DNA of 64,000 nt from Variovorax paradoxus (GTDB lineage Bacteria > Pseudomonadota > Gammaproteobacteria > Burkholderiales > Burkholderiaceae_C): the NCBI GenBank assembly GCA_016806145.1, contig CP063166.1:2976001-3040000 (forward strand), read 5' to 3'. The notes below the pieces were generated by a model. That model was not told the DNA's origin, did not search any database, and was given only the letters and a program-made list of their open reading frames with translations. Shown one piece after another: positions 1,262 through 23,774 of the stretch. Each line of letters begins with the position of its first letter. The stretch's first letter is position 1. The translations under genes were made by a program, and so were the position numbers.

Positions 1262-1278
1262 ACCCCCACTAAGGTTCG
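1262..1278 (+). promoter_or_regulatory. Repeated 17-nt intergenic motif, copy 1 (candidate phage late promoter)
   Basis: ACCCCCACTAAGGTTCG, one base different from the TAGGGTTCG core of the other four copies. It starts 3 nt after the stop of the upstream membrane-protein gene and ends 34 nt before the terminase small subunit ATG. A perfect stem-loop (CCGGGA-ATCA-TCCCGG, 1294-1309) lies between motif and start codon. It does not resemble a sigma-70 promoter. Confidence 0.55.
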
Positions 1279-1312
1279 CAAGTTCGCACCGCCCCGGGAA
1301 TCATCCCGGCCC

Positions 1313-1975
1313 ATGACAGACGCGCGCGAACCTGAAGACAAGCCGATAGCCCACTGGCCGACCATCGAGGCCGACTTCCGCGCCGGCATCAAGAGCATCC
1401 GCCAGATCGCCCGCGAGCACGGCCTCTCCGAGACGGCGATCCGCAAGCGGGCCAAGGCCGAGGACTGGACCCGCGACCTCTCCGCCGCCATCCAGGCCAA
1501 GGCCGACGATCTGGTTCGCAGGGAAGCGGTTCGCAATGAAGTTCGCGCTGCGAACCAAATCCCCGACAAAGTCGTCGTCGACGCCAACGCGAACGCTGTC
1601 TACCGCGTGCAGATGGCGCACCGCGCCGGGCTGACGAAGCTCTCCGCGCTGCGCGACGGCTTGCTGTCGGAGCTCGAGCAGGCTGCCACGCCGACGGCCG
1701 CGCCGGCGCCAGAGGCCGCCGACGGTGAGAAGGGTGAGGACGCGGCCGACCCGCAGCCCGCGCCAGGCTTGACCCTGCCGACGCGCATCGCTGCTCTGAA
1801 GCAGCTGTCCGAAGTCGACGAGAAGATCCGCCGCGGCGAGCGCGAGGCCTACGGCATCGACAAGATCCAGCCTGACGAAGGCGGCATCGTCAGCAAGCTG
1901 ACCGACGCCGAGCGCGCCAGCCGTCTGGCCGCGCTGTTCGCGATCGCGCGGAAGAGGGCGGCCGATGGCGCCTGA
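1313..1975 (+). CDS. Phage terminase small subunit
   Basis: 220 aa. Terminase small subunits bind the packaging site of phage DNA and recruit the large subunit. Residues about 25-52 form a helix-turn-helix typical of the family (GIKSIRQIAREHGLSETAIR), followed by helical sequence, an Ala/Pro-rich linker (about 122-148) and a C-terminal helical part. The gene is immediately upstream of and overlaps the large subunit by 11 nt, the usual arrangement. There is no Shine-Dalgarno sequence before the ATG; instead a stem-loop (1294-1309) ends 3 nt upstream. Initiation may therefore be weak or regulated, or the true start may lie slightly downstream. Confidence 0.85.
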   Translation: MTDAREPEDKPIAHWPTIEADFRAGIKSIRQIAREHGLSETAIRKRAKAEDWTRDLSAAIQAKADDLVRREAVRNEVRAANQIPDKVVVDANANAVYRVQMAHRAGLTKLSALRDGLLSELEQAATPTAAPAPEAADGEKGEDAADPQPAPGLTLPTRIAALKQLSEVDEKIRRGEREAYGIDKIQPDEGGIVSKLTDAERASRLAALFAIARKRAADGA

Positions 1976-3503
1976 CATCGACGTTCCCGAGCTCGTGAAG
2001 CTGATGCCGTTCCTCTCGGACGGCGAGCGGGCCGAACTCGACCTGCTGCTGACCGACGGCCTGCCGCTGTGGATGCCCCAGGTCGGCCCGCAGATGGCCG
2101 CGCTGGAGTCGAAGGCCGACATCCTCTTCTACGGCGGCTCGGCCGGCGGCGGCAAGACCGACCTGCTGCTGGGCGCGTCGCTCACCGAGCAGGAGCACAG
2201 CATCATCTTCCGGCGCGAGGCCGTTCAGCTGGTCGGCATCGAGGAGCGTATGGCCAAGATCCTGGGCACCCGCAAGGGTTACAACAGCCAGGACGGCGTC
2301 TGGCGCCTGCCGGGCAAGCGCGTGCTCGAACTCGGCAGCGTGAAGGAGCCCGACGACTGGACGAAGTACCAGGGCCGGCCCCACGACGCCAAGCTCTTCG
2401 ACGAGATCACCCACTTCCTGGAGCTGCAGTTCCGCACGCTGATCGGCTGGATGCGCACCGACAACCCGAAGGTGCGCCAGCGCGTGATCTGCGCCGGCAA
2501 CCCTCCGACCAGCAGCGAGGGCGAGTGGGTGATCAGGTTCTGGGCGCCCTGGCTCGACCCCAAGCACCCGAACCCGGCCAAGCCGGGCGAGCTGCGGTGG
2601 TTCGTCACCGACGAGGCCGGCAAGGACATGGAGGTGCCCGGGCCCGAGCCGGTGATGGTCGGCAAGGAACTGATGACGCCGAAGAGCCGGACCTTCATCC
2701 CGTCCAGCGTCGACGACAACCTCTATCTCAGCACCACGGGATACAAGGCCACGCTGCAGGCCCTGCCGGAGCCGCTACGCTCGCAGATGCTGCGCGGCGA
2801 CTTCCTGGCCGGCCGAACCGATCCGGTCTGGCAGCTGATCCCCACGGAGTGGATCAAAGCGGCCCAGGCGCGCTGGAAGCCCAAGGACAAGAAGGGGCCG
2901 ATGACGGCCCTTGGCTACGACGTTGCCCGCGGCGGCCTCGACAACTCGTCGGCCGCGCGCCGGCATGGCAGCTGGATCGACGAGCTCGTGACGGTGCCTG
3001 GCATCGCGACCAACGACGGCCCCAAGGGCGCGGCCTTCGTGGTGCCGCTCATCCGCAACGGGGCGCCGGTGGCTGTGGACGCGATCGGCGTCGGCACCTC
3101 GGTGCTCGACTTCCTCGTGGGTCTCGGCGTGCTCTGCGTCCCCGTCGTCGGCTCGGAGAAGAGCGACGCCATCGACAAGACCGGCAACCTTCGCTTCCGC
3201 AACAAGCGCGCCGAGATGTACTGGCTGCTGCGCGAGGCGCTCGACCCCACGGCCGAGGACCCGCTTGCCCTGCCGCCCGATCCCGAGCTCACCGCCGACC
3301 TCTGCGCCGTTCGCTACAAGGTTGTGCAGCTCGGGCGCTTCGCCGCCATCCTGATCCGTGACAAGGACGAGATCCGCGAGGAGCTCGGCCGCTCGCCCGA
3401 CAAGGGCGACAGCGTCGCGCAGACCTTCCTTTCCGACATCCCCGAAGCCGTCGCTCTAGCCGAGACCTCGCCTCGCGAGGATCCCGACTGGCGCTCTTTC
3501 TGA
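1965..3503 (+). CDS. Phage terminase large subunit (packaging ATPase/nuclease)
   Basis: 512 aa, a normal length. It drives DNA into the prohead and cuts the concatemer. The N-terminal ATPase has a Walker A loop GGSAGGGKT (about residues 57-65), a Walker B ending in the acidic pair of KLFDEITHF (about 144-152), and a coupling-type AGNPP motif (about 177-181). The C-terminal nuclease begins at about 312 with the RNase H-fold strand ALGYDVARGG, whose Asp is a metal ligand; further acidic residues follow. It overlaps the small subunit gene and is followed 8 nt later by the portal gene, so the three are probably co-transcribed. Confidence 0.95.
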   Translation: MAPDIDVPELVKLMPFLSDGERAELDLLLTDGLPLWMPQVGPQMAALESKADILFYGGSAGGGKTDLLLGASLTEQEHSIIFRREAVQLVGIEERMAKILGTRKGYNSQDGVWRLPGKRVLELGSVKEPDDWTKYQGRPHDAKLFDEITHFLELQFRTLIGWMRTDNPKVRQRVICAGNPPTSSEGEWVIRFWAPWLDPKHPNPAKPGELRWFVTDEAGKDMEVPGPEPVMVGKELMTPKSRTFIPSSVDDNLYLSTTGYKATLQALPEPLRSQMLRGDFLAGRTDPVWQLIPTEWIKAAQARWKPKDKKGPMTALGYDVARGGLDNSSAARRHGSWIDELVTVPGIATNDGPKGAAFVVPLIRNGAPVAVDAIGVGTSVLDFLVGLGVLCVPVVGSEKSDAIDKTGNLRFRNKRAEMYWLLREALDPTAEDPLALPPDPELTADLCAVRYKVVQLGRFAAILIRDKDEIREELGRSPDKGDSVAQTFLSDIPEAVALAETSPREDPDWRSF

Positions 3504-3511
3504 GAACCACC

Positions 3512-5806
3512 ATGACAGCCCTGACCACCGAGCTCAACGGCCCGCGCACCGGCGCGCCCGACACCGACATGCAGACCGGCGCGCTAACGCTGCAGGAGTT
3601 CACCGACTTCTTCCACGAGATCGAGGAGCAGCCGGCCTGGCGCGCGAAAGCCGATCGCGAGATGGAGTACTACGACGGCAACCAGCTGAGCTCGGAGATC
3701 CTGCAGAAGCAGCAGCAGATCGGCATGCCGCCCGCGATCGAGCCGCTGATCGGGCCCGCGATCGATGCCGTGCTCGGCCTCGAGGCGAAGACCCGCGCCG
3801 ACTGGCGCGTGCTGCCCGACTCGCAGGATCAGAGCGGCGACGAGGTCGCGCAGGCGCTCAACTTCAAGCTGAACCAGGCCGAGCGCCACAGCAAGGCGGA
3901 CAAGGCCTGCTCGGACGCCTTCAAGACCCAGGTCGCGGCCGGCATCGGTTGGGTCGAGGTCTCGCGCAACCCGAACCCCTTCCAGTTCCCGTACCGGTGC
4001 AAGTCCATCCACCGCAACGAGATCTGGTGGGACATGCTGGCCACGGAGGAAGACCTCAGCGATGCCCGCTACCTGATCCGCCGGCGCTGGACGCCCACGG
4101 TGCAGGCCAAGCTGTTGTTCCCGGCCAAGGCCGACCTGATCGGCCAGGTCGTCAGCGGCTGGCCGATCTACGAAGGCCTAGGGTCCACCGAGGGCGGCAC
4201 GTCGACCGACCTGGTCAGCGCATGGGACCAGCAGCGTGGCTGGAGTGTCGAGGAGCAGCAGTGGCGCGACATGACGGGCAAGCGCGTGTGCCTGTTCGAG
4301 GTCTGGTACCGGCGCTGGAGCCGTGTGCTGGTGCTCAAGATGCCCGACGGCCGCGTCGTCGAGTACGACAAGCGCAATGCCCTGCACGTGCAGTTCGTCG
4401 CCATCGGCGCCACGGTGCCGGAATGGGCGATCGTGCCGAAGATGCGAGTGTCGATGTGGATGGGCCCGCACCGCCTTTCCGACGGACCCACGCCGTACCG
4501 GCACCAGAAATTCCCCTACGTGCCGTTCTGGGGCAAGAAGGAGGATCGCACCGGCGTGCCCTACGGGTTGGTGCGCGGCATGATGTACATGCAGGACAAC
4601 GTCAACGCGACGAACAGCAAGCTGCGTTGGGGCCTGGCCGCGGTGCGCACGACGCGCACCAAGGGCGCCGTCAACGGCACCGATGCCCAGTTCCGGCGCG
4701 AGGTGGCACGCGTCGATGCCGACATCCTGCTCGACCAGGTGCACATGTCCAAGCCTGGCGCCACATTCAAGGTCGAACGAGACTTCGAGCTCAACCAGCA
4801 GCAGTACCAGATGCTCCAAGACTCGCGCGCGGGCATTCAGCGCGTCAGCGGCATCTCGCCGAGCTTGCAGGGCGCACAGAGCGGCGCCAACTCCGGCCTG
4901 CAGGAGGCCACCCAGCTCGAGCAGAGCACCCAGGCCCTGGCCGAGGTCAACGACAACTTCTCGACCAGTCGCGCCGAGGTCGGCGACCTGCTGCTGTCGC
5001 TGCTGGTCGAGGATGTCATTGGCAAGGAAGAGGTCGTCACCATCAAGGGCGACCCGCTGCGCGACGAAAAGCAGGTGCGGCTCAACGTGCCGGCCCAGGA
5101 CGAGGACGGCATCACCTATCTCGACAACGACGTCGAGCGCACGAAGCTGAAGGTCGCGCTCAACGACGTGCCCAGCACCCCGAGCTACCGCAGCCAGCAA
5201 CTGTCGGCCATGTCGGAGGCCTTCAAGGCCATGCCGCCGCAGTTCCAGCAGGTCGCGATGCCGTACCTGATTGCCCTGATGGATCTGCCGAACCGCGAGG
5301 ACATCATCAAGGCCGTGCGCGAGGCCGCGCAGCAGATGACGCCCGAGCAGATGCAGGAGCGCATCGACGAGGCCGTCAATCAGGCCCGCATGGCCGACGC
5401 CCGCGACCTCAAGCTGCAGGAGCTGTCGCTGCGGTATCCGAAGGAGAAGCTCGACGCCGAGATCGGCAAGATCCTGGCCGACTCCTTCAAGACGGTGGTC
5501 GAGGGCCTCTACTCGGCGAACCAGACCGCGGCGACCATTGCGATGAACCCGGAGATTGCGCCGGTGGCGGACGCCGTGGCCGAGGCCGCGGGCTATCGGC
5601 AACCGACGCCGGCAGGTGTCGATCCGAACCTGCCGGTGCCGGCCGGGCTGCCACCTGCTGCGGTGATGGACGCCACGGGGACGCCGGGTGTCGCGGAGAA
5701 CACCAGCCCTGCGCTGCCGCCGGTGGCACCGAGTCCAGGTTCGCCGATGGATGGTGGCGGACGCGGCATCGAGACCGAGCGCACGAGCGATAACGTGCCA
5801 GCCTAA
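3512..5806 (+). CDS. Phage portal protein (P22-like)
   Basis: 764 aa, close to the length of the P22 portal. Twelve copies form the ring through which DNA enters and leaves the head. The N-terminal part resembles the P22 portal family in the stretch from EYYDGNQLS through the DAVLGLEAKTRADWRV region and in WWDMLATEEDLSDARYLIRRRW. The C-terminal third is helical and Gln/Glu-rich (about 600-690), consistent with a barrel or crown, and ends in a Pro-rich tail. It follows terL by 8 nt. Its TAA overlaps the stop codon of the convergent nuclease-like gene by two bases, a very tight junction for an inserted reverse-strand gene. Confidence 0.9.
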   Translation: MTALTTELNGPRTGAPDTDMQTGALTLQEFTDFFHEIEEQPAWRAKADREMEYYDGNQLSSEILQKQQQIGMPPAIEPLIGPAIDAVLGLEAKTRADWRVLPDSQDQSGDEVAQALNFKLNQAERHSKADKACSDAFKTQVAAGIGWVEVSRNPNPFQFPYRCKSIHRNEIWWDMLATEEDLSDARYLIRRRWTPTVQAKLLFPAKADLIGQVVSGWPIYEGLGSTEGGTSTDLVSAWDQQRGWSVEEQQWRDMTGKRVCLFEVWYRRWSRVLVLKMPDGRVVEYDKRNALHVQFVAIGATVPEWAIVPKMRVSMWMGPHRLSDGPTPYRHQKFPYVPFWGKKEDRTGVPYGLVRGMMYMQDNVNATNSKLRWGLAAVRTTRTKGAVNGTDAQFRREVARVDADILLDQVHMSKPGATFKVERDFELNQQQYQMLQDSRAGIQRVSGISPSLQGAQSGANSGLQEATQLEQSTQALAEVNDNFSTSRAEVGDLLLSLLVEDVIGKEEVVTIKGDPLRDEKQVRLNVPAQDEDGITYLDNDVERTKLKVALNDVPSTPSYRSQQLSAMSEAFKAMPPQFQQVAMPYLIALMDLPNREDIIKAVREAAQQMTPEQMQERIDEAVNQARMADARDLKLQELSLRYPKEKLDAEIGKILADSFKTVVEGLYSANQTAATIAMNPEIAPVADAVAEAAGYRQPTPAGVDPNLPVPAGLPPAAVMDATGTPGVAENTSPALPPVAPSPGSPMDGGGRGIETERTSDNVPA

Positions 5807-6834
5807 ACAAGTGTCAGGTTAAAGTTGCCCGTGTTCTGGAAGTCGATCGATCGCTCTCCTAATCCGGGCAACTCGAGCGTCATCCGCATGGCTGAAGTGA
5901 AGGTGCCGACCAGTTCCTGACCTGACAAGTGTCCGATGGCCTCGTATGTCATCTGGAAGTGCATGTCTACCGGCGCGTCGCCTTCTTGCCAAGTGTTGAT
6001 GTCGATTGAAGGGGTTCCTTTCGGCACCACGACTGATTTCGAAGCTCGAAACGTCGTAGGGTGCGCTGGATCGGTCGAAAACACATCCTCATCGGAAAGC
6101 AGCTCGACAAAATTAAGGCCGATCTGCTCGTTCATAGCTTGCAATTTGGCTACAGCCACCTCGGAACGGTAGGTTAATGAGATCCCTCGCTCTGGCCTTC
6201 GGGTAACGAAGCCATCGACGATGAAAAGCGTCAGCCGATCGACCGGGGCAATAGGCGGTTCCAATCTTTCCACCCGGAGACGTCCACTGCTAATGCGCGC
6301 AGTGGACCGCAGTCCGGGCCCGAGAGGCTCTCCTTCATCGATTTGCACGTCAGGGAAGTCGCGCAACAGACTTGCCGGAGCCAAGGTATTGAGGATCGCC
6401 TGCATTCTCGCCTCAAGTTCTTCGAATTGAAATTCCAATGCAGGCGGGGCGTCTGGTCCCCGGTTGGTGACATAGAGCCGGAATAGTCGCCCATTCGTCA
6501 CCAGAAAATAGACAGCCCGGACATCTGGGTGGTTTGCATAGGACCATGCCTGAGCCTCAATCAATTCGTCCAATACCTCGGACGGCGCCTTGGCCTCTAT
6601 CACCCAACGAACCTTTCCACCTGCCTCGAGGATGTAGTCGGCCTTCCCTCGAAGGGGCGGATCGGTCGCTTTCTCGCGTCCGAGTTGCGTCCGGCTATAG
6701 CGCAACTCGAGCTCCCTCCGCACGTTGTGAACGGTGCCGGTTTGATAGCCCAGCCTCCAGATGAGGGGTGCGAGCACTTCTTCTCGAACATCCGCTTCAT
6801 TCATCGCCTCGAACACTGGCGCTTTCGGTCCCAT
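5803..6834 (-). CDS. HsdR N-terminal-type putative nuclease, reverse-strand moron
   Basis: 343 aa from the ATG at 6834, chosen because an AGGAGG site lies 8 nt upstream. Residues about 14-130 look like the PD-(D/E)xK domain of type I restriction subunits: REEVLAPLIWRLGY, then Asp66 in GKADYIL, the Glu80-x-Lys82 pair in VIEAK, and a QxxxY-type element (EAQAWSY, about 94-100). The remaining 210 residues match nothing I recognise and contain no helicase motor, so this is not a complete HsdR. Composition is less GC-rich than the capsid genes, and it is the only reverse gene inside the head module, between portal and scaffold. A defence or anti-competitor role is plausible but inferred. Confidence 0.75.
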   Translation of the reverse strand: MGPKAPVFEAMNEADVREEVLAPLIWRLGYQTGTVHNVRRELELRYSRTQLGREKATDPPLRGKADYILEAGGKVRWVIEAKAPSEVLDELIEAQAWSYANHPDVRAVYFLVTNGRLFRLYVTNRGPDAPPALEFQFEELEARMQAILNTLAPASLLRDFPDVQIDEGEPLGPGLRSTARISSGRLRVERLEPPIAPVDRLTLFIVDGFVTRRPERGISLTYRSEVAVAKLQAMNEQIGLNFVELLSDEDVFSTDPAHPTTFRASKSVVVPKGTPSIDINTWQEGDAPVDMHFQMTYEAIGHLSGQELVGTFTSAMRMTLELPGLGERSIDFQNTGNFNLTLV

Positions 6835-6877
6835 GGTCTGACCCTCCTGCAGCAAGCGTAGCGCAGGGTGAAGTACC

Positions 6878-6894
6878 ACCCCCAGTAGGGTTCG
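6878..6894 (+). promoter_or_regulatory. Repeated 17-nt intergenic motif, copy 2
   Basis: ACCCCCAGTAGGGTTCG, lying between the divergent nuclease-like gene (start 6834) and the scaffold gene (start 7003). On the plus strand it would restart rightward late transcription after the reverse-strand insertion. About 108 nt separate it from the scaffold ATG. Confidence 0.55.
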
Positions 6895-7002
6895 CCCGCT
6901 TGTCCCTCCCTCGACACCATCACGCCCAGCAACGCCATCCCGGCGAAGCAACCACCAAGACCTTTGGCGGCCACGGCGAGATGTGGCAAGGAACTGGAAC
7001 AC

Positions 7003-8097
7003 ATGGCAAACATCGAGCAGCTACTGGAACAGCACGCGGATGCCGACGGCAACGTGAGCGACGAAGCGATGGCGCGCCTCCTGACGGGCGGCCTCGAGGG
7101 CGAAACCGCAGCACCACCGGCTGCGGAAACCGGCGCGCCCACCGCCGGCGCCGACGCAGCGAACCCCGACGACACCCCCGCGGCAGCACCGGCTGCACCA
7201 GCACCCGCGTCTGCAGCGGGCGCACCGGCCTCCGCGCCGGCGGCACCGCCCGCAGATGCTCCGGCACCCACGCCTGCCCCGGCACCCGCTGCAGCTCCGG
7301 CCGCAGCGGAGTCGGAGCAGGTGATCCTGGCAAAGGATGGCAAGCACACCATCCCGTACCAGAAACTGGTGAGCGCTCGGGAAGAAGCGAAGGCGGAGAA
7401 AGCGCGCGCCGACGAGGCGGAGCGCCAGGCGGCGGAGCTGCGCGACCAGCTGGCGAGGGCGAAAGCTCCCGCCGCTGCGCCGGCGCCGGCGCCGGCCGCT
7501 GCGCCGGCGGCGCCCGAGGCGCCGTTCGGCGATTACTCGGACGAGGCGGTGAGGAAGGGCGTGAACCAGCTCGTGGCGGATGCCCTGGGCAAGTTCAAGT
7601 CCGAAGTCGCTGCTGAGCTCGAGCCGGTCAGGAAGCAGGCCGCCGAGACTGCCGCCGAAGCGCACTTCCGCGCCATCTACAGCAAGCACCCCGACACGGA
7701 TTCCGTCGTCGAGAGCGCCGAGTACCAGCAATGGCTCACCGCGCAACCGTCGATCGTGCGTCGTACGTACGAAGCCGTGCTCGAGAAGGGGACCGCTGCA
7801 GATGTGATCGAGATGCTGGATGCCTACAAGGCTGCTCGACCCGCCACCGCGCCCGCGCCGGCGCCTGCCCCCGCCGCGGCACCTGCCCCGGCCGTGGACC
7901 CGCAGAAGAAGGCCGACCAGGTCATCGCCACCGTCAAGCCGAAGACGCCCACCAGCCTGACGGATGTTCCGGCCGGCTCGCAGGCGGTCCACGACGAAGC
8001 GGAAGCGATGGCCGAGATGAGCCCGCTGGACCTCATGGCCAAGTTCGAGGGCAAGACGCCCGCGCAGATCGAAGCCCTGATGCGTCGGCTGGTTTGA
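7003..8097 (+). CDS. Probable head scaffolding protein
   Basis: 364 aa from the ATG at 7003 (AAGGA about 11 nt upstream); a longer frame from 6964 has no ribosome site. Composition is typical of scaffolds: acidic N-terminus, a long Ala/Pro-rich segment (about 30-105), a charged coiled-coil stretch (about 115-155), a second Ala/Pro linker, a helical middle, another Ala/Pro linker, and a short helical C-terminus that could bind coat protein. It sits directly between portal and major capsid genes, where P22-like phages carry the scaffold. No catalytic motif is visible, so identification rests on composition and position. Confidence 0.7.
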   Translation: MANIEQLLEQHADADGNVSDEAMARLLTGGLEGETAAPPAAETGAPTAGADAANPDDTPAAAPAAPAPASAAGAPASAPAAPPADAPAPTPAPAPAAAPAAAESEQVILAKDGKHTIPYQKLVSAREEAKAEKARADEAERQAAELRDQLARAKAPAAAPAPAPAAAPAAPEAPFGDYSDEAVRKGVNQLVADALGKFKSEVAAELEPVRKQAAETAAEAHFRAIYSKHPDTDSVVESAEYQQWLTAQPSIVRRTYEAVLEKGTAADVIEMLDAYKAARPATAPAPAPAPAAAPAPAVDPQKKADQVIATVKPKTPTSLTDVPAGSQAVHDEAEAMAEMSPLDLMAKFEGKTPAQIEALMRRLV

Positions 8098-8123
8098 CCA
8101 CACCCCGCCACACGGAGTCTTGA

Positions 8124-9404
8124 ATGTCGAAAACCAACATCCCGTACGGCTCGCCGCTCGCGCTCAAGGCGCAGTCGGTCGGCCTCTTCGCTGCCACCAT
8201 GCAGCGCCTCACGCAGATCAACCGGCTCACCGGCCAGATGCCCACGCAGGCCGACGCCGAAAGCAAGCTGCGGGTGCAGTCCAGCACCGACATGCCGATC
8301 GTGCGATGCATGGACCTGACCAAGGTCGCCGGTGACGAAGTCACCTTCGACCTTGTGAACCCGATCGGCGGCAAGCCGATCATGGGCGGCCGCATGGCCG
8401 AGGGCCGCGGCGAGCGCCTGGACCTTCAACAGGACAAGCTGCGGATCAACCAGTCGCGCAAACCGATCTCGGCTGGCGACACGATGACGCAGCAGCGCAC
8501 GCCCCACCAACTGCGCCAACTCGCGCGCGCGGCCGGGCAGGGCTACATGCTTCGCCTGGAAGACCAGCGCACGCTGGTGCACCTGGCCGGCGCCCGCGGC
8601 TACCACAGCAACATCGAGTGGGCAGTGCCGCTCGAGACCGATCCGGACTTCCCCGAGATCATGGTGAACCCGGTGAAGGCGCCCACGCGAAACCGCCACT
8701 TCATGTCGACCGGCACCGGTATCGAGCAGATCAAGGCCTCGGGCAACGAGATCTCGATCGCGACCACGGACGTGATGAACATGGACGTGGTCGATGCCAT
8801 CGCGACGGTGATCTCGTCGATCCCGCTGCCGCCCCCGCCCGTCAAGTTCGAGGGCGACTCGATGGCCGACGACGCGCCGCTGCGCGTGCTGCTGGTCTCC
8901 GCCGAGCAGCACATGTCCTTCGTGAAGTCGGGCAACTTCCGCCAGCTGCAGGCCTCGGCCATGGCCCGGGCCCAGCAGGCGAAGAACAACCCGCTGTTCG
9001 TGGGCGATGCCGGCCTCTGGGCGAACGTGCTGCTCGTGAAGATGCCCAAGCCGATCCGCTTCTACGCGGGCAACGTGCTGCGCTGGTGCGCGAGCCTCAC
9101 CGACGAAACCGAGACGACCACCGATGTGGTACCGGCGAGCTTCGGAACCGCGTTCGCGGTCGATCGCGCCATCCTGCTCGGCGGCCAGGCGCTGGCCGAG
9201 GCCTGGGGCAAGAACAGCCGCTCCGGCAACCCGTTCTTCTGGAGCGAGAAGGAGCTCGACCACGGCGACAAGCTGGAAGTGCTGATCGGCTCCGTCGGCG
9301 GCAAGAGCAAGGTGCGCTTCGACGTGAACTACGGCGACAGCTACCAGCCGACCGACAACGGCGTGATCGCGATCGACACCGCGGTCGCCATCGCCGGCCA
9401 GTGA
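8124..9404 (+). CDS. Major capsid protein, N4-gp56/DUF4043 family
   Basis: 426 aa. It is recognised by the family-like N-terminus (IPYGSPLALKAQSVGLFA), the segment DLVNPIGGKPIMGG and the region with ENKNP-type HK97-fold features around AKNNPLFVGDAGLWANVLL. These proteins form the icosahedral shell of podoviruses related to N4 or P22-like transducing phages. The ATG at 8124 follows GGAG. It comes 26 nt after the probable scaffold gene and is followed by a strong hairpin (9411-9430), which may limit read-through or stabilise the abundant capsid transcript. Confidence 0.88.
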   Translation: MSKTNIPYGSPLALKAQSVGLFAATMQRLTQINRLTGQMPTQADAESKLRVQSSTDMPIVRCMDLTKVAGDEVTFDLVNPIGGKPIMGGRMAEGRGERLDLQQDKLRINQSRKPISAGDTMTQQRTPHQLRQLARAAGQGYMLRLEDQRTLVHLAGARGYHSNIEWAVPLETDPDFPEIMVNPVKAPTRNRHFMSTGTGIEQIKASGNEISIATTDVMNMDVVDAIATVISSIPLPPPPVKFEGDSMADDAPLRVLLVSAEQHMSFVKSGNFRQLQASAMARAQQAKNNPLFVGDAGLWANVLLVKMPKPIRFYAGNVLRWCASLTDETETTTDVVPASFGTAFAVDRAILLGGQALAEAWGKNSRSGNPFFWSEKELDHGDKLEVLIGSVGGKSKVRFDVNYGDSYQPTDNGVIAIDTAVAIAGQ

Positions 9405-9410
9405 TCAGTG

Positions 9411-9430
9411 GGGCCGGCTGCGGCCGGCCC
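9411..9430 (+). terminator. GC-rich hairpin after capsid gene
   Basis: A 7-bp perfect stem, GGGCCGG (9411-9417) with CCGGCCC (9424-9430), around a 6-nt loop, starts 7 nt after the capsid stop. No U-tract follows, so it is more likely an attenuator or mRNA-stabilising hairpin than a full intrinsic terminator. Confidence 0.5.
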
Positions 9431-9468
9431 TCCTGACACTTTCCACCAAACGAATCAGGAGCCTCAAC

Positions 9469-9942: not shown

Positions 9943-9966
9943 CCCCTTTCGTCGAGGGCCCGTTCC

Positions 9967-9993
9967 GGGGCGGGCTTCGGTCCGCCCCTTTTT
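9967..9993 (+). terminator. Intrinsic terminator after capsid block
   Basis: GGGGCGG (9967-9973) pairs with CCGCCCC (9982-9988) around an 8-nt loop, and five T residues (9989-9993) follow. This is a classic rho-independent terminator 25 nt after the decoration-type gene. The next gene starts only 19 nt later, so its expression needs read-through or antitermination. Confidence 0.85.
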
Positions 9994-10012
9994 ACTTCCG
10001 CAGGAGATACCG

Positions 10013-10810: not shown

Positions 10811-10832
10811 TCAGCCACCGAAAGGAATGCCA

Positions 10833-11210: not shown

Positions 11211-11213
11211 GCC

Positions 11214-11915: not shown

Positions 11916-11932
11916 CCACCCATTAGGGTTCG
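11916..11932 (+). promoter_or_regulatory. Repeated 17-nt intergenic motif, copy 3
   Basis: CCACCCATTAGGGTTCG, immediately after the adaptor gene. A stem-loop (GCCGGG 11947-11952 with CCCGGC 11960-11965) follows and ends at the base before the ATG at 11966, which has no Shine-Dalgarno sequence. The layout resembles copy 1. Confidence 0.55.
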
Positions 11933-11965
11933 ACGGGTCATTGTCTGCCGGGAACACTGCCCGGC

Positions 11966-13210
11966 ATGGCAATGCGCACCGTCGATCTCGGCACCTTCGC
12001 TCCCGGGCTGAACAATCGGCTTCAGCCGACGCAGCTCGGCCGCACGCTGGCCGATCGATCGCGGGCGACCTTCTTGTCCGCGGGCGAGAACATCGACATC
12101 ACTGGCCGCGGCTACCTCAAACGTCGCCGCGGCATAGCGTTGGCGCGCGCCGGCGCGGCAACGCATTCGGTCTGGGGCGATGACGCCGAGGGCTACTGTG
12201 CATTCGGGAGCGACCTCCTGCGCCTGGAGCCGGTTGGCGACGAGCTGGCTGCCACGACCGTGCTGTCCGGCCTGCCCGAGCTGGCGCCGATCAGTTACAC
12301 CCGCATGCCCGATGGTGATGTTGTGTGGTCAAACGGCCAGCGCATCGGCCGACTGCGCGCAGCTGCTGCGCTACCGCTCGCGACACTGCGGCCGCAGGTC
12401 GTGCCGTCGGTCTCGGCGATCGCAGGCGCGCTGTCCGCTGGTCGGTACCAAGTAGCGTTTACCGAGATCGGGCCGCTGGGCGAGTCCGGCTCCACGCCCC
12501 CAGTCGCGATCACGCTGCCGGATTCGGGCGGGCTGCGCATCACTGGCCTCGGCCCGAGCACCATCGTCTACATGACCGGGCCCAACGGCTCGGTTTTCAA
12601 CGCGATCGCTACGGACGGCGACATCGTGACGCTGGCCAACAGCGGGGCCATGCTGCGCACGCTGCTGCTGGCGGACATGCCGGCGGGCTCGACCGTGCGG
12701 CACTACAAGGGCTCGCTGTTGGTCGCGGCCGGCAACCTGCTGTTCAAGTCGGAGCCGTTCCTGTATGGGCTGTTCTCGCCGTCGCAAGGCTACATCCCGT
12801 TCCCGGCCCCCATCACCGTTGTGGAGCCCTGCGAAACCGGAGTCTTCGTGTGCGCGGACCGCACCTACTGGCTGGCCGGCGGCCTGCTCGATACGGCGCC
12901 CGCGGTCGTGCTGCCCTACGGCGGCCTGCAGGGCTCGGGCGGCTCCGTGCGTACGCCGGACGGCCAGGGCACGCAGCAGGCCTTCTGGCTGTCGCCGCGC
13001 GGCCTCGTGATCGGCACGCCCGACGGCGCGGCGAACAACGTTCAGGAGCACGCGCTGAAGTTCGGGCGCGCGCGTGCTGGCGCAACGCTGTTCCGGGAAC
13101 AAGACGGCGCCAACCACATCCTCTGCGCGCGGCAGGAGCCGGCGCGGCCCCTGGGCGCGGCGCAGGGCTTCTTCGCCGTCGAAACCATCGTCAAGGATCT
13201 TGACCCATGA
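11966..13210 (+). CDS. Probable tail nozzle/hub protein (beta-propeller-like)
   Basis: 414 aa of strand-rich sequence with repeated Gly/Asp turns and short hydrophobic strands spaced as in a beta-propeller; no enzyme motif. The N-terminus (FAPGLNNRLQPTQL) and the string of GDLLRLE, GDVVWSNGQRIG and GNLLFKSEPF units resemble proteins that plug or extend the portal in short-tailed phages. Position after the adaptor supports this. The start follows a stem-loop with no ribosome site. The stop overlaps the next start (ATGA). Confidence 0.55.
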   Translation: MAMRTVDLGTFAPGLNNRLQPTQLGRTLADRSRATFLSAGENIDITGRGYLKRRRGIALARAGAATHSVWGDDAEGYCAFGSDLLRLEPVGDELAATTVLSGLPELAPISYTRMPDGDVVWSNGQRIGRLRAAAALPLATLRPQVVPSVSAIAGALSAGRYQVAFTEIGPLGESGSTPPVAITLPDSGGLRITGLGPSTIVYMTGPNGSVFNAIATDGDIVTLANSGAMLRTLLLADMPAGSTVRHYKGSLLVAAGNLLFKSEPFLYGLFSPSQGYIPFPAPITVVEPCETGVFVCADRTYWLAGGLLDTAPAVVLPYGGLQGSGGSVRTPDGQGTQQAFWLSPRGLVIGTPDGAANNVQEHALKFGRARAGATLFREQDGANHILCARQEPARPLGAAQGFFAVETIVKDLDP

Positions 13211-13707: not shown

Positions 13708-13717
13708 AAGGACCAAC

Positions 13718-14152: not shown

Positions 14153-14154
14153 AC

Positions 14155-16424: not shown

Positions 16425-16432
16425 GGATCTCC

Positions 16433-19287: not shown

Positions 19288-19288
19288 C

Positions 19289-19305
19289 ACCCCCCGTAGG
19301 GTTCG
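19289..19305 (+). promoter_or_regulatory. Repeated 17-nt intergenic motif, copy 4
   Basis: ACCCCCCGTAGGGTTCG, beginning 2 nt after the preceding stop. A stem-loop (GTCGGC 19321-19326 with GCCGGC 19332-19337) and an AAGGAG ribosome site follow before the ATG at 19354. Confidence 0.55.
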
Positions 19306-19353
19306 CGCGGAAGCTCTTGCGTCGGCACGATGCCGGCATCCAAGGAGCCTCCC

Positions 19354-19758
19354 ATGACCATCCAGATGGGCGCAACGCTGCGCAACGCGCGCAGCGCCGC
19401 AATCGAAACCACCATCGGTACGACGCCGAAGATCCAGATTCGCACCGGCGCGCAGCCTGCCAATTGCGCGGCGGCCGACAGCGGCACGCTGCTCGCGGAG
19501 TTCACGCTGCCTTCCGATTGGTCGACCCAGGCGAGCGGCGTGCTGACCTTCAGCGGCGTGCCGTTGTCCGCCACGGCTGGTGCCGCCGGTACGGCCGGCC
19601 ACTACCGCATCAAGGACAGCGCGGGCACCACCACGCACATTCAAGGCAGCGTGACCGCCACGGGCGGCGGTGGCGACCTGACCGTCGACAACGCCGTGAT
19701 CGCGAGCGGCCAGACCGTACAGATCACCGGCTGGACCATCACCGAGGGCAACGCCTAA
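19354..19758 (+). CDS. Small phage structural protein
   Basis: 134 aa. The ATG at 19354 is preferred over an in-frame ATG at 19330 because AAGGAG at 19342-19347 fits it. The opening TIQMGATLRNARSAAIETT is a pattern I recognise from many short phage proteins of unknown role; the rest is strand-rich with Gly/Thr turns (GHYRIKDSAGTTTHIQGSV). Probably a tail or fibre accessory protein. The next gene begins 3 nt after its stop, so the two are coupled. Confidence 0.65.
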   Translation: MTIQMGATLRNARSAAIETTIGTTPKIQIRTGAQPANCAAADSGTLLAEFTLPSDWSTQASGVLTFSGVPLSATAGAAGTAGHYRIKDSAGTTTHIQGSVTATGGGGDLTVDNAVIASGQTVQITGWTITEGNA

Positions 19759-19761
19759 GCC

Positions 19762-21036
19762 ATGGCCGATCCCGTCACTTTCAGCGCTTCGCGCAAGGGT
19801 GCGGGGGTAACGCTGAGCGGCGGGGACCTGACCGCCACGTCGTCGCAAGCCGACAGTGTGCTCACCAACAGCTCGAAGACGTCGGGCAAGTGGTATTGGG
19901 AAATTCTGGTCGGCACTCAGAGTCAAGCCGACTACGGCACGGTGGGACTTGCGTTCGTTACCCAGAACACCGGTTCCGGCACTTTGTCCCCGTACTACTG
20001 GCTGTCGGGCGGCAACACGTCCTGGTCGTCCCCCGGAGTGAAGTGGGTGGCCGGCAACGTGCTTGGCTTCGCCCTCAACCTTGACGACCTCGTCAGCGGT
20101 CAGCCCACGAATGCGCGCGAATTTCGCGTCTATAAGAACGGTACGCTCGTCGAAACGGCGTACCCGAATACGAGCACAGCGGCCGTCTCCCCAGCAGTCG
20201 GGGATGTGTACGGCGACACCTCGACCTTCGCCTACACCGGCAAGTTCGCTTCGTCTTCGTTCACGTACACGCCTCCGAGCGGGTTCCAGGCGCTGACGGC
20301 AGACGCGCCGTCTGCTGCCATTGCTGGCGCACAGACACTCGCTGGTGTATCGCAAGCGGCGACGGCCACCGTTGCTGCGGCAGGCACAGCCTCCTTCACC
20401 GCCGTGCAGGCGCTCGCCACCGTAGCCCAGGCGGCCACCGCTGCCGAGCTGGCGAAGCTGGTTGCCACGCAGACCTTGGCTGGTGTAGCGCAGGGTGCAG
20501 TCGCTTCCGTGCAGGCGAAGACCTCGGCCGCTCAGACGCTGGCCGGCGTAGCGCAGGCAGCTACAGGCGTGGTCACCGGCGCGTCGGGATCGTTCTCTGG
20601 CGCGCAGACGCTCGAGGCCGCCGCGCAGCTCGCCGCGGCGGCCGCGATTGCCCGCGCGAGCGCTGGGCAGGCGCTAGACGGCGTAAGTCAGGGCGCGGCC
20701 GCCGCGGCGGGTGCGCGCGTCGCTGCCGCGCAGACGCTGGACGCAGCAGTGGGAGCGGCCACGGCCATCGCGATCGCCAGTGCACACGCCGCGCAGACCC
20801 TGGCCATCGTCTCGCAGGTCGCCACAGGCACCGTGTCCAACACCATCAGCCGCATGGTGGGCGCGCAGCTGCTGGCCGGCGTGCTGCAGGTCGCGCGCGT
20901 GCGTCACGCCTATGCCGTCGAGCGCAACGAGCGCACGGTGCGCGTGATCGCCGAGGACCGCAGCATCCGAGCCGTGCCCGAATCCCGCCGCGTCGCGATC
21001 GTCGGCGAGCGCCGCGCCGCGGCCTTCACCGACTGA
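19762..21036 (+). CDS. SPRY-domain tail protein with nine-fold repeat
   Basis: 424 aa. Residues about 38-172 resemble a SPRY/B30.2 module (SGKWYWEILVG, YGTVGLAFV, FALNLDD, FRVYKNGTLV), a beta-sandwich used for protein or glycan contact. Residues about 191-376 carry nine copies of an element of the form QTLAGVAQ-A, whose first Gln falls at about 191, 216, 237, 258, 282, 303, 324, 345 and 369 (spacing mostly 21 or 24). The C-terminus has three strands with an R-x-V/I pattern (RTVRVIAEDRS, IRAVPESRR). This looks like a receptor-binding head on a rod, hence a probable tail fibre. Confidence 0.7.
   Translation: MADPVTFSASRKGAGVTLSGGDLTATSSQADSVLTNSSKTSGKWYWEILVGTQSQADYGTVGLAFVTQNTGSGTLSPYYWLSGGNTSWSSPGVKWVAGNVLGFALNLDDLVSGQPTNAREFRVYKNGTLVETAYPNTSTAAVSPAVGDVYGDTSTFAYTGKFASSSFTYTPPSGFQALTADAPSAAIAGAQTLAGVSQAATATVAAAGTASFTAVQALATVAQAATAAELAKLVATQTLAGVAQGAVASVQAKTSAAQTLAGVAQAATGVVTGASGSFSGAQTLEAAAQLAAAAAIARASAGQALDGVSQGAAAAAGARVAAAQTLDAAVGAATAIAIASAHAAQTLAIVSQVATGTVSNTISRMVGAQLLAGVLQVARVRHAYAVERNERTVRVIAEDRSIRAVPESRRVAIVGERRAAAFTD
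20332..20889 (+). repeat. Nine coding repeats of 63 or 72 bp
   Basis: In-frame repeats in the SPRY-domain gene, each encoding an element like QTLAGVAQAA followed by an Ala/Val/Thr-rich spacer. Repeat starts are mostly 63 or 72 bases apart (one of about 75), so copy number could vary by slippage or recombination without breaking the frame. Confidence 0.7.
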
Positions 21037-21045
21037 GAGACCTCC

Positions 21046-21381
21046 ATGGCCACCCAGAAGCCCACCACCTACGTGCTCGACCGGGGCGACCTCGTGATCG
21101 AGAAGGATCCGAACGCGGTCCTCGACTACGCCTTCGACTGGTCAGCTTGGCTCGCGCTCAACGGTGGCGACACCATCGCGTCCGTCGAGTTCGTCGTTGA
21201 TCCCTCGCTCACCGTTGTCGACTTCGGCTTCGACGGCACGACCGCGACGGTGTGGCTCTCCGGCGGCGTGAAGCCAGTCAGCGGCCCCAACAAGCTGCGA
21301 GTCACGTGCCGCATCACGACCAACAACAACCCTGCGCGGATCGACGATCGGTCCGTGTTCCTCAAGATCGTGGAGCGGTGA
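21046..21381 (+). CDS. Phage fiber-tail adaptor-type protein
   Basis: 111 aa. The segments TYVLDRGDLVIEKDPNAVLDY, FDWSAWLALNGGDTIASVEF and the final strand-rich part (LRVTCRITTNNNPARIDDRS) match a small immunoglobulin-like family often placed next to tail-fibre genes and annotated as fiber-tail adaptor. It lies between the SPRY-domain fibre gene and the lysis cassette, and its TGA overlaps the next ATG by one base. Confidence 0.6.
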   Translation: MATQKPTTYVLDRGDLVIEKDPNAVLDYAFDWSAWLALNGGDTIASVEFVVDPSLTVVDFGFDGTTATVWLSGGVKPVSGPNKLRVTCRITTNNNPARIDDRSVFLKIVER

Positions 21382-21779
21382 TGGACGAGAAGCCAAGCCT
21401 GGACCCCATCGAGGTCGCGCGCGTCGCAGCCGGACTGCTGATGTCGGCGAAGTTGGCTGCTGTGGTCGGCCCCTACTCGCTGATCTTGCTCGCAGCGATC
21501 GCGGGCGCGGCGATCCGGCTGGCGAATCGCCCGTCGACCGGCCGCTCGGCCTCGTTCTTCTTCTTCCTCGGCGCGACCTTCGCGTCGCTGGTGCTCACAG
21601 TGCCGATCGCGTCCCTGGTGGCCAGCTACAAGGACACGTGGGAGGCGCAGTGGTTCTTCATGCCGCTGGCAGTGGCGCTCGCCTACACCGCCGACCGCTG
21701 GAAGGACATCGCCAACGTGCTGGTCGATGCCGTGAAGACCTTCATCCGCAACTGGGCGAACAAGGGCTCCAAGCCATGA
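21381..21779 (+). CDS. Holin-like membrane protein 1
   Basis: 132 aa. Hydrophobic segments lie at about residues 26-46, 53-75 (Phe-rich, SFFFFLGATFASLVLTVPIA) and 88-105, with a charged C-terminus (about 106-132). Small multi-span proteins immediately before a lysozyme gene are usually holins, which permeabilise the inner membrane at the time of lysis. It overlaps the next gene by ATGA. Which of the two membrane proteins is holin and which antiholin cannot be told. Confidence 0.65.
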   Translation: MDEKPSLDPIEVARVAAGLLMSAKLAAVVGPYSLILLAAIAGAAIRLANRPSTGRSASFFFFLGATFASLVLTVPIASLVASYKDTWEAQWFFMPLAVALAYTADRWKDIANVLVDAVKTFIRNWANKGSKP

Positions 21780-22168
21780 ATTATGACCTCCTGATCCTGC
21801 TGCACTTCGCAGCCAACGGCCTCGTAGGCGGCATCTGCGTCTGCCGGCTCGGGAAGATGCACGGTGTGCTGATGCGGGTAAAAGCCCAGTACATCGGCCT
21901 GCTGGTGATGTCGGCTGCCAACGGGTTCTCTCCGATCCTGTTCTCGCAGTGGCCCACGGCGGTGTCGATCCTCTACGTGCTGTGGGTGTTGTTCATCCTG
22001 TGGAGCGATGGCTACCAGTGGCGAGAGGGCGCGCCGAAGCCAGCGCTCAGCGCAGACCACTGGGTGATGGGCGCCGCGGCGCAGGCCTGGTCGCGGGGGC
22101 GCGAGTTGCTGCGGGAGGCTCGGAAGAAGCTCGTCGAGCTTGCACGGAGGATTCGCCATGGCCGCTGA
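21776..22168 (+). CDS. Holin-like membrane protein 2
   Basis: 130 aa with hydrophobic segments at about 3-22, 38-58 and 60-80, then an Arg/Lys-rich tail (about 105-130). It is translationally coupled to the first holin-like gene and overlaps the lysozyme gene by 11 nt, so it belongs to the lysis cassette as holin, antiholin or membrane partner. No family-specific motif seen. Confidence 0.65.
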   Translation: MNYDLLILLHFAANGLVGGICVCRLGKMHGVLMRVKAQYIGLLVMSAANGFSPILFSQWPTAVSILYVLWVLFILWSDGYQWREGAPKPALSADHWVMGAAAQAWSRGRELLREARKKLVELARRIRHGR

Positions 22169-22733
22169 GCTGCACCTGGGCGCGGAGGGAACCTACCTCT
22201 GCCACTACTTCGAGAAGCTGAAGCTGCGAGCCTATCCCGACCCGCACTCGCCACTCTTCAAGGCGCTGACGGGCGACAGCATCGATCCCTACTCACTGCA
22301 GGCTGTGCCGGCGAAGTTCGCCCAATTCAGCGGCGCGCCGTGGACTATTGGCTGGGGCGACACAGGGCCCGACGTCGTGCCCGGCCTCGTGATCACCGCC
22401 GAGCAGGCTGACCAGCGCTTCGCGCGGCGCATGTCGACGGAGTTCGAGCCCGGGGTGCGTGCGGCCGTGCGCGTGGCGCTGGCTCAGAACGAGTTCGACG
22501 CCCTGGTCTCGATCTTCTACAACGCGGGCGTAGGTGCGCTCGGCAAGTCTACGCTGGTGCGCAAGCTCAATGCCGGCGATCGTGCCGGAGCGGCCACAGA
22601 GTTCTCGCGCTGGAATATGGCCGGCGGCGAACGCAGCAAGGGGCTGGATCGCAGGCGAGAGGCCGAGCGACTGGTGTTCCTGGGCACTGCGGCGCGCGAG
22701 GCCATCGCGACTGCGCTGCGCAAGTTCTCATAG
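22158..22733 (+). CDS. Phage lysozyme (GH24 endolysin)
   Basis: 191 aa; ATG at 22158 preceded by ACGGAGG. It cleaves the glycan backbone of peptidoglycan during lysis. The catalytic Glu19 is followed by Asp28 in HYFEKLKLRAYPDP, and the family Thr is in PWTIGWGDTG. Between Asp and TIGWG there is an insertion of about 35 residues compared with the compact T4/lambdoid form. Later family signatures are NAGVGALGKSTLVRKLN and SKGLDRRREAERLVF. There is no signal peptide, so it should need holin pores. Confidence 0.9.
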   Translation: MAAELHLGAEGTYLCHYFEKLKLRAYPDPHSPLFKALTGDSIDPYSLQAVPAKFAQFSGAPWTIGWGDTGPDVVPGLVITAEQADQRFARRMSTEFEPGVRAAVRVALAQNEFDALVSIFYNAGVGALGKSTLVRKLNAGDRAGAATEFSRWNMAGGERSKGLDRRREAERLVFLGTAAREAIATALRKFS

Positions 22734-22746
22734 GCGGAGGCGACAG

Positions 22747-23259
22747 ATGCCCGACCTGCGCAACTACCTGCTGCTCGCACTGGTGGCGCTGGCCGGCGTG
22801 CTGGGCCTGTCGACCTGGCACTACCGCGGGCAGGCCAAGACGGCGGGCTTGGCGCTGCAGGTTCAGAACGCAGCGGTGGTGGCTACGAACCGCGCCGCCG
22901 CGCAGCTGCTCGAGCAGCGCACCAAGGAACGCGATGCCAAGCAAGCCGCACTCGATAAGCGCCACCAGGCGCAGGAGAAGACCGATGCAACTGCTGTCAC
23001 AAAAATCGCTGCTGACGATCGCCGCCAGCGCAGCGCTCCTGTCGTTGTCCGGGTGCGCGACTGCGCCCGCGATGCCGGGGGCGGTGGTGGAGGCGCCCCA
23101 GGTGGTGCCGCCACCGCCGCCGAAACTGGTGCAGGAGACGCCACCGCGGCCAGTGGGCTACTTTCGGAAGCTGGTGCTCGACGCCTTGCAGACGCCCTGA
23201 CCGAGATCGAAACGATGAGCGCGGCCTATGCGTCGTGCCGAACCCGGGTCGTGGACTGA
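22747..23259 (+). CDS. Rz-like inner-membrane spanin
   Basis: 170 aa from the ATG at 22747. An N-terminal membrane anchor (about residues 6-24) is followed by a coiled-coil periplasmic region rich in Gln/Arg/Lys/Ala (about 30-85), a Gly/Ala-rich linker and a helical C-terminus. Spanins join the inner and outer membranes at the last step of lysis. The partner Rz1 is encoded inside this gene in another reading frame (22985-23200), the classic embedded arrangement. Confidence 0.85.
   Translation: MPDLRNYLLLALVALAGVLGLSTWHYRGQAKTAGLALQVQNAAVVATNRAAAQLLEQRTKERDAKQAALDKRHQAQEKTDATAVTKIAADDRRQRSAPVVVRVRDCARDAGGGGGGAPGGAATAAETGAGDATAASGLLSEAGARRLADALTEIETMSAAYASCRTRVVD
22985..23200 (+). CDS. Rz1-like outer-membrane spanin lipoprotein (embedded)
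   Basis: 71 aa encoded wholly inside the Rz-like gene in a different frame. The ATG at 22985 gives a lipoprotein signal ending in LSLSGC, so the mature protein would start at Cys24 and be lipidated. The rest is short and Pro-rich (VVPPPPPKLVQETPPRP), exactly the Rz1 pattern. It should form a complex with the Rz-like protein across the periplasm. Confidence 0.88.
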   Translation: MQLLSQKSLLTIAASAALLSLSGCATAPAMPGAVVEAPQVVPPPPPKLVQETPPRPVGYFRKLVLDALQTP

Positions 23260-23271
23260 GCGCTGACGCGG

Positions 23272-23667
23272 CTACGCGGAAAGCGTGGTGTCCGAAGAGC
23301 CGCCTTTGAGGATCTGCTCCAGCGCCAGCTTGCCGCCGATCTTCACAAGGTCGAAGGACAGCGCCAGGCCTTTATCCTTGGCGGTCTTCTTCAGCCTTTC
23401 CCAGACGCTCTGCGAGCGGATGGTTGCCAACAACTGGTGACCTTCCCACGTCAAGTCTGGCAGCATCAATCGATCTCTGTCGCTGTCGTCGGCGCGAATG
23501 CCCTTCACGAAACCGGCTTCGCCGAGCAAGAGAACATGGCGCGCCCGGACATCTGCGGCTGTCTCTCCGTCGTAGTCGGCTTCGAAGCTGGCTTCATTTT
23601 TCTGCAGAGCGGACATCTCCTCGATCTCGGTCAAAACATCTCGGACTAGATCCCAATCGAGCTTCAT
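23272..23667 (-). CDS. DUF2513 family protein, reverse-strand accessory gene
   Basis: 131 aa from the ATG at 23667 (GAGGAA upstream). The pattern MKLDWDLVRDVLTEIEE, HVLLLGEAGFVKGI and LPDLTWEGHQLLATIRS.VWE is that of DUF2513, a small winged-helix-like family common in prophages, of unknown function. It is the only reverse gene between the lysis cassette and the ejection genes; its end lies 12 nt from the Rz-like stop. Copy 5 of the 17-nt motif follows on the other strand. Probably a lysogenically expressed moron. Confidence 0.8.
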   Translation of the reverse strand: MKLDWDLVRDVLTEIEEMSALQKNEASFEADYDGETAADVRARHVLLLGEAGFVKGIRADDSDRDRLMLPDLTWEGHQLLATIRSQSVWERLKKTAKDKGLALSFDLVKIGGKLALEQILKGGSSDTTLSA

Positions 23668-23707
23668 GACGTTCCTCGTTCCCGTTCGGAAGCAGCAATA
23701 GTACGAC

Positions 23708-23724
23708 GCCCCCGGTAGGGTTCG
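23708..23724 (+). promoter_or_regulatory. Repeated 17-nt intergenic motif, copy 5
   Basis: GCCCCCGGTAGGGTTCG, between the reverse DUF2513 gene and the first ejection protein gene (ATG at 23775). The leader that follows resembles copy 4 in its ATGCCG and AGGA-rich ribosome-site stretch. Confidence 0.55.
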
Positions 23725-23774
23725 ACCCCGCGCGAGGGCGCGCGAAGAATGCCGCGGAACCTCAGGAAGCTCCC

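Follow-up and report, generated by a model that had tools for sequence, protein, structure and literature searches.

Which factor reads a short motif that is repeated ahead of the late genes of a prophage in Variovorax paradoxus? The motif lies in a window of 64,000 nucleotides (nt; contig CP063166.1, positions 2,976,001 to 3,040,000), the whole stretch of DNA analysed here, in which an initial annotation had described five copies of a 17-nt motif and proposed them as a phage-specific promoter. The analysis points to a longer, two-block element, in which the motif probably serves as the activator box in one family of late promoters of phages; a protein of the family phrog_8117 would bind this box and recruit the host RNA polymerase carrying sigma70.

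A bipartite element ahead of the late genes

The five copies were confirmed on the plus strand, between genes and upstream of rightward genes, with 1, 0, 2, 0 and 0 mismatches in order of position; the only extra match in the window within three mismatches is on the minus strand at 8356. At this tolerance the window contains six matches, a number reached by 7 of 100 shuffled sequences and so not special. The 15-nt core CCCCNNTAGGGTTCG with up to two mismatches is likewise common on both strands of the host genome (55 + 42 matches vs 65 + 65 for the reversed control); specificity therefore resides in the full element. The exact core was found three times in 9,439,028 bases, always inside the window, and once for the reversed control. 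The box joined to a -10 pattern, a search pattern composed to fit the five window copies, matched the genome at exactly these five positions, against none when reversed and about 0.23 expected from base composition. The motif is real, and the search of the host genome and related prophages that had been proposed as its check came out in its favour.

The length of 17 nt had been set too short. A second conserved block, 21 nt further on, was seen in 153 exact-core matches listed from relatives and viral contigs; the viral box scan covers at least 120 stretches, so that its counts describe a sample, and position 0 denotes the last G of the box. Among the 119 non-redundant copies in the matches listed, 74% have A at +22 and 71% have T at +26; A also stands at +21 in 46% and at +24 in 47%, and +25 is A or C. 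Both A +22 and T +26 are present in 77 of the 110 viral copies among the matches listed vs 7 of 74 control sites, the control being the reversed box in the same viral collection (81 stretches, of which 80 were used for the letter comparison, with 74 usable sites). All five window copies carry A and T 22 and 26 nt after the box. This pair of letters matches the sigma70 -10 signature (-11A/-7T), and the whole can be written as CCCCC-NN-TAGGGTTCG, 21 nt, ANNNT, with an inverted-repeat core CCC-N4-GGG within the box. The motif had been said to lack -10/-35 character; as to the -10 this does not hold, as a -10-like hexamer stands at identical spacing in five of five copies. No good -35 was found: positions -36 to -31 read TTCG, A/C, C in the profile, not TTGACA.

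Copy 1 (ACCCCCACTAAGGTTCG, 1262..1278, plus strand) is followed by the hexamer AATCAT at 1299..1304 and lies upstream of the terminase small subunit gene (TerS, phrog_1206; 1313..1975, plus strand), its first downstream gene. Copy 2 (ACCCCCAGTAGGGTTCG, 6878..6894, plus strand), with CACCAT at 6915..6920, stands upstream of a phrog_479 gene (7003-8097, function unknown) that precedes the major head protein gene; its leader before the ATG at 7003 is about 76 nt long. Copy 3 (CCACCCATTAGGGTTCG, 11916..11932, plus strand), with AACACT at 11953..11958, precedes the gene for head closure Hc3 (phrog_8040; 11966..13210, plus strand). Copy 4 (ACCCCCCGTAGGGTTCG, 19289..19305, plus strand) has CACGAT at 19326..19331 and is upstream of a phrog_3758 virion protein gene whose start is at 19330 or 19354, a Shine-Dalgarno-like sequence preceding the ATG at 19354. 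Copy 5 (GCCCCCGGTAGGGTTCG, 23708..23724, plus strand), with AAGAAT at 23745..23750, is likewise followed by a Shine-Dalgarno-like sequence and then by the ATG at 23775 of a 715-aa gene (23775-25922).

Transcription would start about 7 nt after the -10. With +1 placed there, the box would span about -48 to -33, with its core centred at about -41.5. The two blocks, about 20 nt apart, resemble a -35/-10 layout and TTCG overlaps the -35 position, so the box might instead be the -35 element of an unusual sigma factor, a host ECF-type (extracytoplasmic function) or diverged phage one, reading TAGGGTTCG plus NANNAT, with phrog_8117 a bystander or an anti-sigma factor. We consider this unlikely: a 16-nt box with an inverted-repeat core reaching -48 is long and far upstream for a -35, and the box with its -10 occurs nowhere else in the host chromosome, unlike a host sigma regulon.

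In class II activator promoters, such as those of CRP class II and lambda CII, the activator site covers the -35 region (in class II it is near -41.5), and the -35 is weak. The element described here would share the site over the -35, its centre near -41.5 and the weak -35, and differs from these systems in protein family, in DNA sequence, in serving several late promoters and in its many leaderless starts. In T4 middle promoters, as described in PMC2988021, sigma appropriation by AsiA/MotA replaces the -35 with a MotA box and keeps the sigma70 -10; the MotA box is centred at -30, 12 ± 1 bp from an excellent -10. By that account the present element is alike in having a phage box in place of the -35 with a sigma70-like -10, and unlike in its spacing, with 20 nt separating the G of TTCG from the -10 hexamer and a predicted centre near -41.5, and in its poor -10. 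MotA is a monomer that binds by a double-wing domain, whereas phrog_8117 is predicted to be a classic winged helix with a long helix. The scheme proposed here also resembles that of P2 Ogr and Mu C, early- or middle-made activators that turn on several late promoters with the host polymerase; box, position and protein differ, Ogr being a zinc-finger protein that binds near -55.

Predicted transcription and translation starts

The element often runs directly into a gene. A start codon stands at +33, +34 and +35 in 11, 29 and 14 of the 110 viral copies listed, vs 2 of the 74 controls, and in the 119 non-redundant copies the letters of ATG are over-represented at +34 to +36, the place expected for +1. 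Transcription at about half of the viral sites would thus start at or within about 2 nt of the ATG, implying leaderless messenger RNAs (mRNAs). A frame of at least 80 codons opened in 42 of the 46 copies with a start codon at the leaderless position, and 23 of 32 other copies are followed within 200 nt by an open reading frame (ORF) with a Shine-Dalgarno-like sequence; the genes behind these 46 and 32 copies were counted as frames, not identified singly.

In the window, copies 1 and 3 are predicted to be leaderless or nearly so: +1 would fall near 1311 for TerS (ATG at 1313) and near 11965 for Hc3 (ATG at 11966). In F116 (L147:7577) and LKA5 (L146:24153) the ATG at the leaderless position precedes the annotated TerS start by 75 and 204 nt, respectively, in the same frame and with no stop codon between them, which suggests that these genes are probably annotated 25 and 68 codons too short. 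In USP_18 the leaderless ATG is itself the annotated TerS start.

These starts bear on the proposal, made as an alternative in the initial annotation, that the motif acts in RNA. As a processing site or a Q/N-like antitermination site on a long late transcript, it would be expected between genes and on the coding strand, where it is indeed found, and antitermination controls late genes in many phages. A fixed 21-nt spacing to a -10 signature and an ATG at the predicted start fit such a role poorly, as do the presence of multiple copies in each genome, where a single operon would have just one at its head, and the lack of a consistent hairpin, and we regard an RNA site as very improbable.

The hairpin was considered because CCGGGAATCATCCCGG and similar sequences suggested one around the -10, and was rejected because the palindromic arms lack consistent covariation: in the 46 leaderless copies the best of 17 centres reached z 2.9, with values down to -2.6, and in the 32 other copies the best z, 3.1, was at a different centre. 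The element is therefore unlike the hairpin promoter of the N4 virion RNA polymerase, in that no conserved hairpin with compensatory changes was found. A phage RNA polymerase of the single-subunit or virion type, such as those of T7 and N4, would account for recurring sites that are phage-specific, share one strand and stand at late gene blocks, and for the palindromic arms that flank the -10 at some of them. Very large virion proteins are encoded by related phages, and an N4 gp50-related match is noted for one of them in the phiC725A paper (PMC5217972). Against these points stand the arms without covariation, the sigma70 -11A/-7T pattern of the second block and the absence of any RNA polymerase among the 38 ORFs of the prophage region that were scanned (28 plus 10 of the early region), and there is little to recommend such an enzyme as the reader. 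Among the readers first put forward (a phage-encoded RNA polymerase, an activator or an unusual sigma factor), an activator whose box takes the place of the -35 fits best, and a phage polymerase is not needed.

Sites in other phages

The same sites occur in phages of Pseudomonas, Acidovorax, Shewanella and Pseudoalteromonas and in Variovorax prophages. A weight-matrix scan of named phages gave 28 sites with scores of 17 or more, every one of them on the strand of the late genes: 7528, 13481, 22920, 24176, 30531 and 44002 in F116 (L147), a classic generalised transducing phage; 24104, 28372, 37811, 39067 and 45879 in LKA5; 2808, 7867, 12690, 26460 and 43285 in USP_18; 9836, 24356 and 41831 in 8P; 12590, 21280, 27192, 35885 and 39544 in AP1 (L154); 6520 in Y7; and 26383 (L343), 5461 and 24605 (both L344) in Y11. 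The matrix was trained on 95 of the 119 copies, including some from LKA5, AP1, F116-like contigs and host-genome sites that were later scanned, and on no copy from 8P, USP_18, Y7, Y11 or the regulator loci of G007, G014, G070, G075 and G373. In an earlier scan the F116 sites 13481, 22920 and 44002 had scored 15.9-16.3, under the largest shuffled score of 17.9 for that stretch; they were retained because LKA5 or USP_18 has a site at the same place.

According to the gene tables, sites lie before TerS in F116, LKA5, USP_18 and AP1, before the gene preceding the major head protein in F116, LKA5, USP_18 and Y11, and before the holin gene in F116, 8P, USP_18 and AP1. Others precede further late genes, and not every phage has each. 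The corresponding sites 22920/37811 and 24176/39067, and 5461 of Y11, fall inside the ends of the preceding genes. Some chance box matches in the viral contigs L028 and L050 resemble tRNA T-loops.

The spelling of the box drifts together within a phage, as expected if one trans-acting protein reads all sites. The box ends in GGGCTGG or GGGCTTG at all sites found in 8P (three) and USP_18 (five). In the Pseudoalteromonas phage Y7, CCNCTGTAAGGTT with at most one mismatch occurs at four places in 50.0 kilobases (kb), with 0.17 expected, and in the Shewanella phage Y11 three and two times in the two halves, with 0.10 and 0.07 expected; it is absent from 49.0 kb of the regulator-free Vibrio phage 12A4. 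Sites of this type precede TerS, the gene before the major capsid gene and other late genes in Y11, and the gene before the major capsid gene and three other genes in Y7.

Seven phages without phrog_8117 (BPP-1, BcepIL02, DC33, CF418P1, phiARM81mr, PhiR5_2 and 12A4) contained one site, on the minus strand of DC33, in 313,859 bases. Five of them have related capsid genes and two a related terminase only. Kinship with Bcep22/BPP-1 was rejected as an explanation of the sites, because these phages share terminase or capsid genes yet are almost site-free.

A phage-specific late promoter, as first proposed, is strongly supported: the copies agree in position and strand, the element is specific within the genome and conserved in distant phages, and its downstream part stands at a fixed distance. 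An account of how F116-type phages turn on their late genes was not found in searches of the open-access literature, nor was a description of such late promoters or of their activator among titles and the beginnings of abstracts, though an earlier description is possible. A text search for TAGGGTTCG in that literature gave no phage-promoter paper by title among the matches listed, phrog_8117 was not linked to late promoters there, and the text of the phiC725A paper contains the word 'promoter' 0 times (PMC5217972). For the box, the candidate activator from an uncharacterised family and the many leaderless starts, these searches gave no description; activator-driven phage late promoters are a known kind.

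The candidate activator phrog_8117

In the prophage, the candidate gene (G000:C1:2974036-2974545, plus strand) lies 1455-1964 bases before window position 1. The 205-aa ORF matches phrog_8117, a family listed with unknown function whose F116 member is F116p37, at E 1.9e-38 (residues 51-173 on positions 16-138 of the 166-position profile). The family was singled out by clustering 5,356 ORFs of at least 45 aa from 13 phages, with partial coverage for LKA5 (50.0 of 64.7 kb), Y7 (50.0 of 57.7), BPP-1 (38.3 of 42.5), DC33 (26.6 of 39.0), CF418P1 (49.9 of 58.0), BcepIL02 (50.0 of 62.7), phiARM81mr (50.0 of 60.0) and PhiR5_2 (50.0 of 61.5). Three families were present in seven of seven site-bearing and none of six site-free genomes, namely Hc3, the phrog_8123 gene behind Hc3 and phrog_8117, the only non-structural one. 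That these three alone follow the sites speaks against an unusual sigma factor as well. The phrog_8117 gene belongs to the rightward early region and precedes the late genes: it adjoins TerS in F116, is a few genes off in LKA5, Y7 and AP1, farther in Y11, and many genes from TerS in 8P and USP_18. A profile search with 8000 scored candidates gave 180 homologues at E<=0.001, and a tblastn search of 50,697 phage records placed the family in 40 of them, namely 37 Pseudomonas phages, AP1, Y7 and Y11; the seven site-free phages, 12A4 included, are not among these 40.

Regulator and sites also go together in viral contigs. The comparison covered the 72 contigs of at least 30 kb among the 102 distinct motif contigs in the matches listed, and 35 control contigs of that size from the 81 control stretches. 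A phrog_8117 match was present in 55 of the 72 motif contigs listed (37/50 plus 18/22) vs none of the 35 controls. Box, -10 and regulator were all found in 52 contigs, box and -10 without regulator in 8, box without -10 but with regulator in 3, and the box with neither in 9 (Fisher p = 4e-5). Conversely, 32 of the 46 regulator loci contain a site that scores at least 17. They comprise 4 of the 12 loci that are about 3.4 kb long, all 24 found with queries from this prophage and LKA5, many of them near-identical F116 relatives, and 4 of 10 found with AP1 and P0029 queries. The background was one match in 686,782 bases of control loci and none when the 46 loci were reversed. Among 12 regulator loci with longer flanks, 10 contained sites, 22 in all, whereas the same sequences reversed contained none; in 9 of these 10 loci the sites are on the regulator's strand. 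In A1 no stretch was conserved enough for locus searches.

Single loci showed further features. A strong site upstream of the regulator in L348 (G018) is on the opposite strand, unlike at other loci, and in L357 (G373) a box with a -10 lies 123 nt ahead of the point where the regulator match begins and may be an autoregulatory site. Weaker look-alikes near regulators were seen by eye in L280, L281, L283, L284, L287 and L289, and were left uncounted except that of L287, which is among the 32 of 46; in L288 none was seen by eye near the regulator. In the prophage a possible sixth, weaker box lies at G000:C1:2975721-2975736, 264-279 bases before window position 1. Its score of 13.3 is below that of a chance match on the opposite strand in the same scan (15.0), and it was retained as possible because L260 has a similar, stronger site (22.5).

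By structure prediction, phrog_8117 is a winged helix with a long C-terminal helix and hence probably a dimer. Searches by fold against BFVD and PDB matched generic winged-helix proteins, with no match reaching E<=0.001, and no solved structure matched the regulator by sequence below E 0.17. The Pfam family AbiEi_4 matches two of four regulator proteins, neither of which reaches the curated cutoff, and at E<=0.01 it matches 24 of 49 members. Two members (BK061585.1 38598-39083 and BK061591.1 12941-13429) bear an annotation as AbiEi, the antitoxin in a type IV toxin-antitoxin system, a label that is probably a misnomer from the shared winged helix. No MotA or AsiA Pfam match was obtained in the four regulators or the 10 early-region ORFs scanned. 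Nor did these 10 ORFs include an RNA polymerase or a sigma factor (L237, further upstream, was outside the scan), which is a further point against an unusual sigma factor. They showed a CI-like repressor (L238:7792-8460), a helicase-methylase, a replication protein and a NinB-like protein. The helicase-methylase (L238:10382-13036) is an 884-aa protein with a DNA helicase family match and a C-terminal N6/N4 DNA methylase match, and an HslV-family peptidase-like gene (phrog_1040, L238:19266-19730) lies between the regulator and the possible sixth site.

A winged-helix protein sitting over the -35 could also repress. The box would then be an operator, phrog_8117 a late repressor and the promoters otherwise constitutive; fold matches of DtxR type, whose domains are mostly repressors, would agree. 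The poor -10s and missing -35 consensus make the promoters look activator-dependent, the gene lies ahead of the late genes in the rightward early region, where temperate phages have their late activators and antiterminators, and the CI-like repressor is a separate gene. Repression through the box thus has a low probability in our estimate.

The preferred reading, activation by phrog_8117, can be laid out as follows. The promoters would be of sigma70 type with the -35 region replaced by an activator box, whose core lies where class II activators bind. The candidate phrog_8117, made from the rightward early region, would bind the box and recruit the host RNA polymerase that carries the main sigma factor; the genes for packaging, head, tail and lysis would be switched on together, and late genes at about half of the sites would be translated from leaderless mRNAs. 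If true, this would yield a promoter grammar that addresses three to six places in each phage, a candidate activator with a name, a role for a family of unknown function, corrected TerS starts and a natural set of leaderless virion-gene mRNAs. More speculatively, phrog_8117 might found a new class of late activators, in which a dimeric winged helix takes over -35 recognition at start-codon promoters and leaderless packaging and head-closure mRNAs give independent late control; leaderless translation being favoured when normal initiation is impaired, this would add a separate level of late control.

Several points weigh against activation by phrog_8117. Binding and transcription starts are deduced from sequence, and the sigma factor is assigned from a sequence pattern with weak -10s (NANNAT), although poor -10s are expected if an activator does the work. 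The weight matrix was partly scored on its own training sequences, and the Y7/Y11 pattern was written after the sites in both phages had been seen. Hc3 and phrog_8123, structural by annotation or place, match the same pattern of occurrence, so that co-occurrence alone names no regulator, and shared ancestry inflates the co-occurrence counts. Eight of the 60 contigs with box and -10 lack a phrog_8117 match; of these, L036, L069 and L092 are 30-39 kb fragments and L072, L080, L087, L097 and L142 were judged to be chance matches. Fourteen of the 46 regulator loci, eight of them shorter than 3.5 kb, and two of the 12 with longer flanks have no site at the threshold. The AlphaFold2 (AF2) predicted template modelling score (pTM) is only 0.47, so that domain arrangement and dimerisation are guesses.

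The surroundings of the boxes offered some further observations. Sites 1, 2 and 5 directly follow accessory genes (545-1258, 5803-6837 and 23272-23667), which had been taken for insertions; the GC (guanine plus cytosine) content of these three genes is 56-58%, vs 67% across window positions 1-31000. Extra genes also stand before such sites in F116, Y7 and AP1, as if accessory cargo were tolerated at the borders of late transcription units. An HNH endonuclease gene is located at 28187-28810, to the right of the late genes examined.

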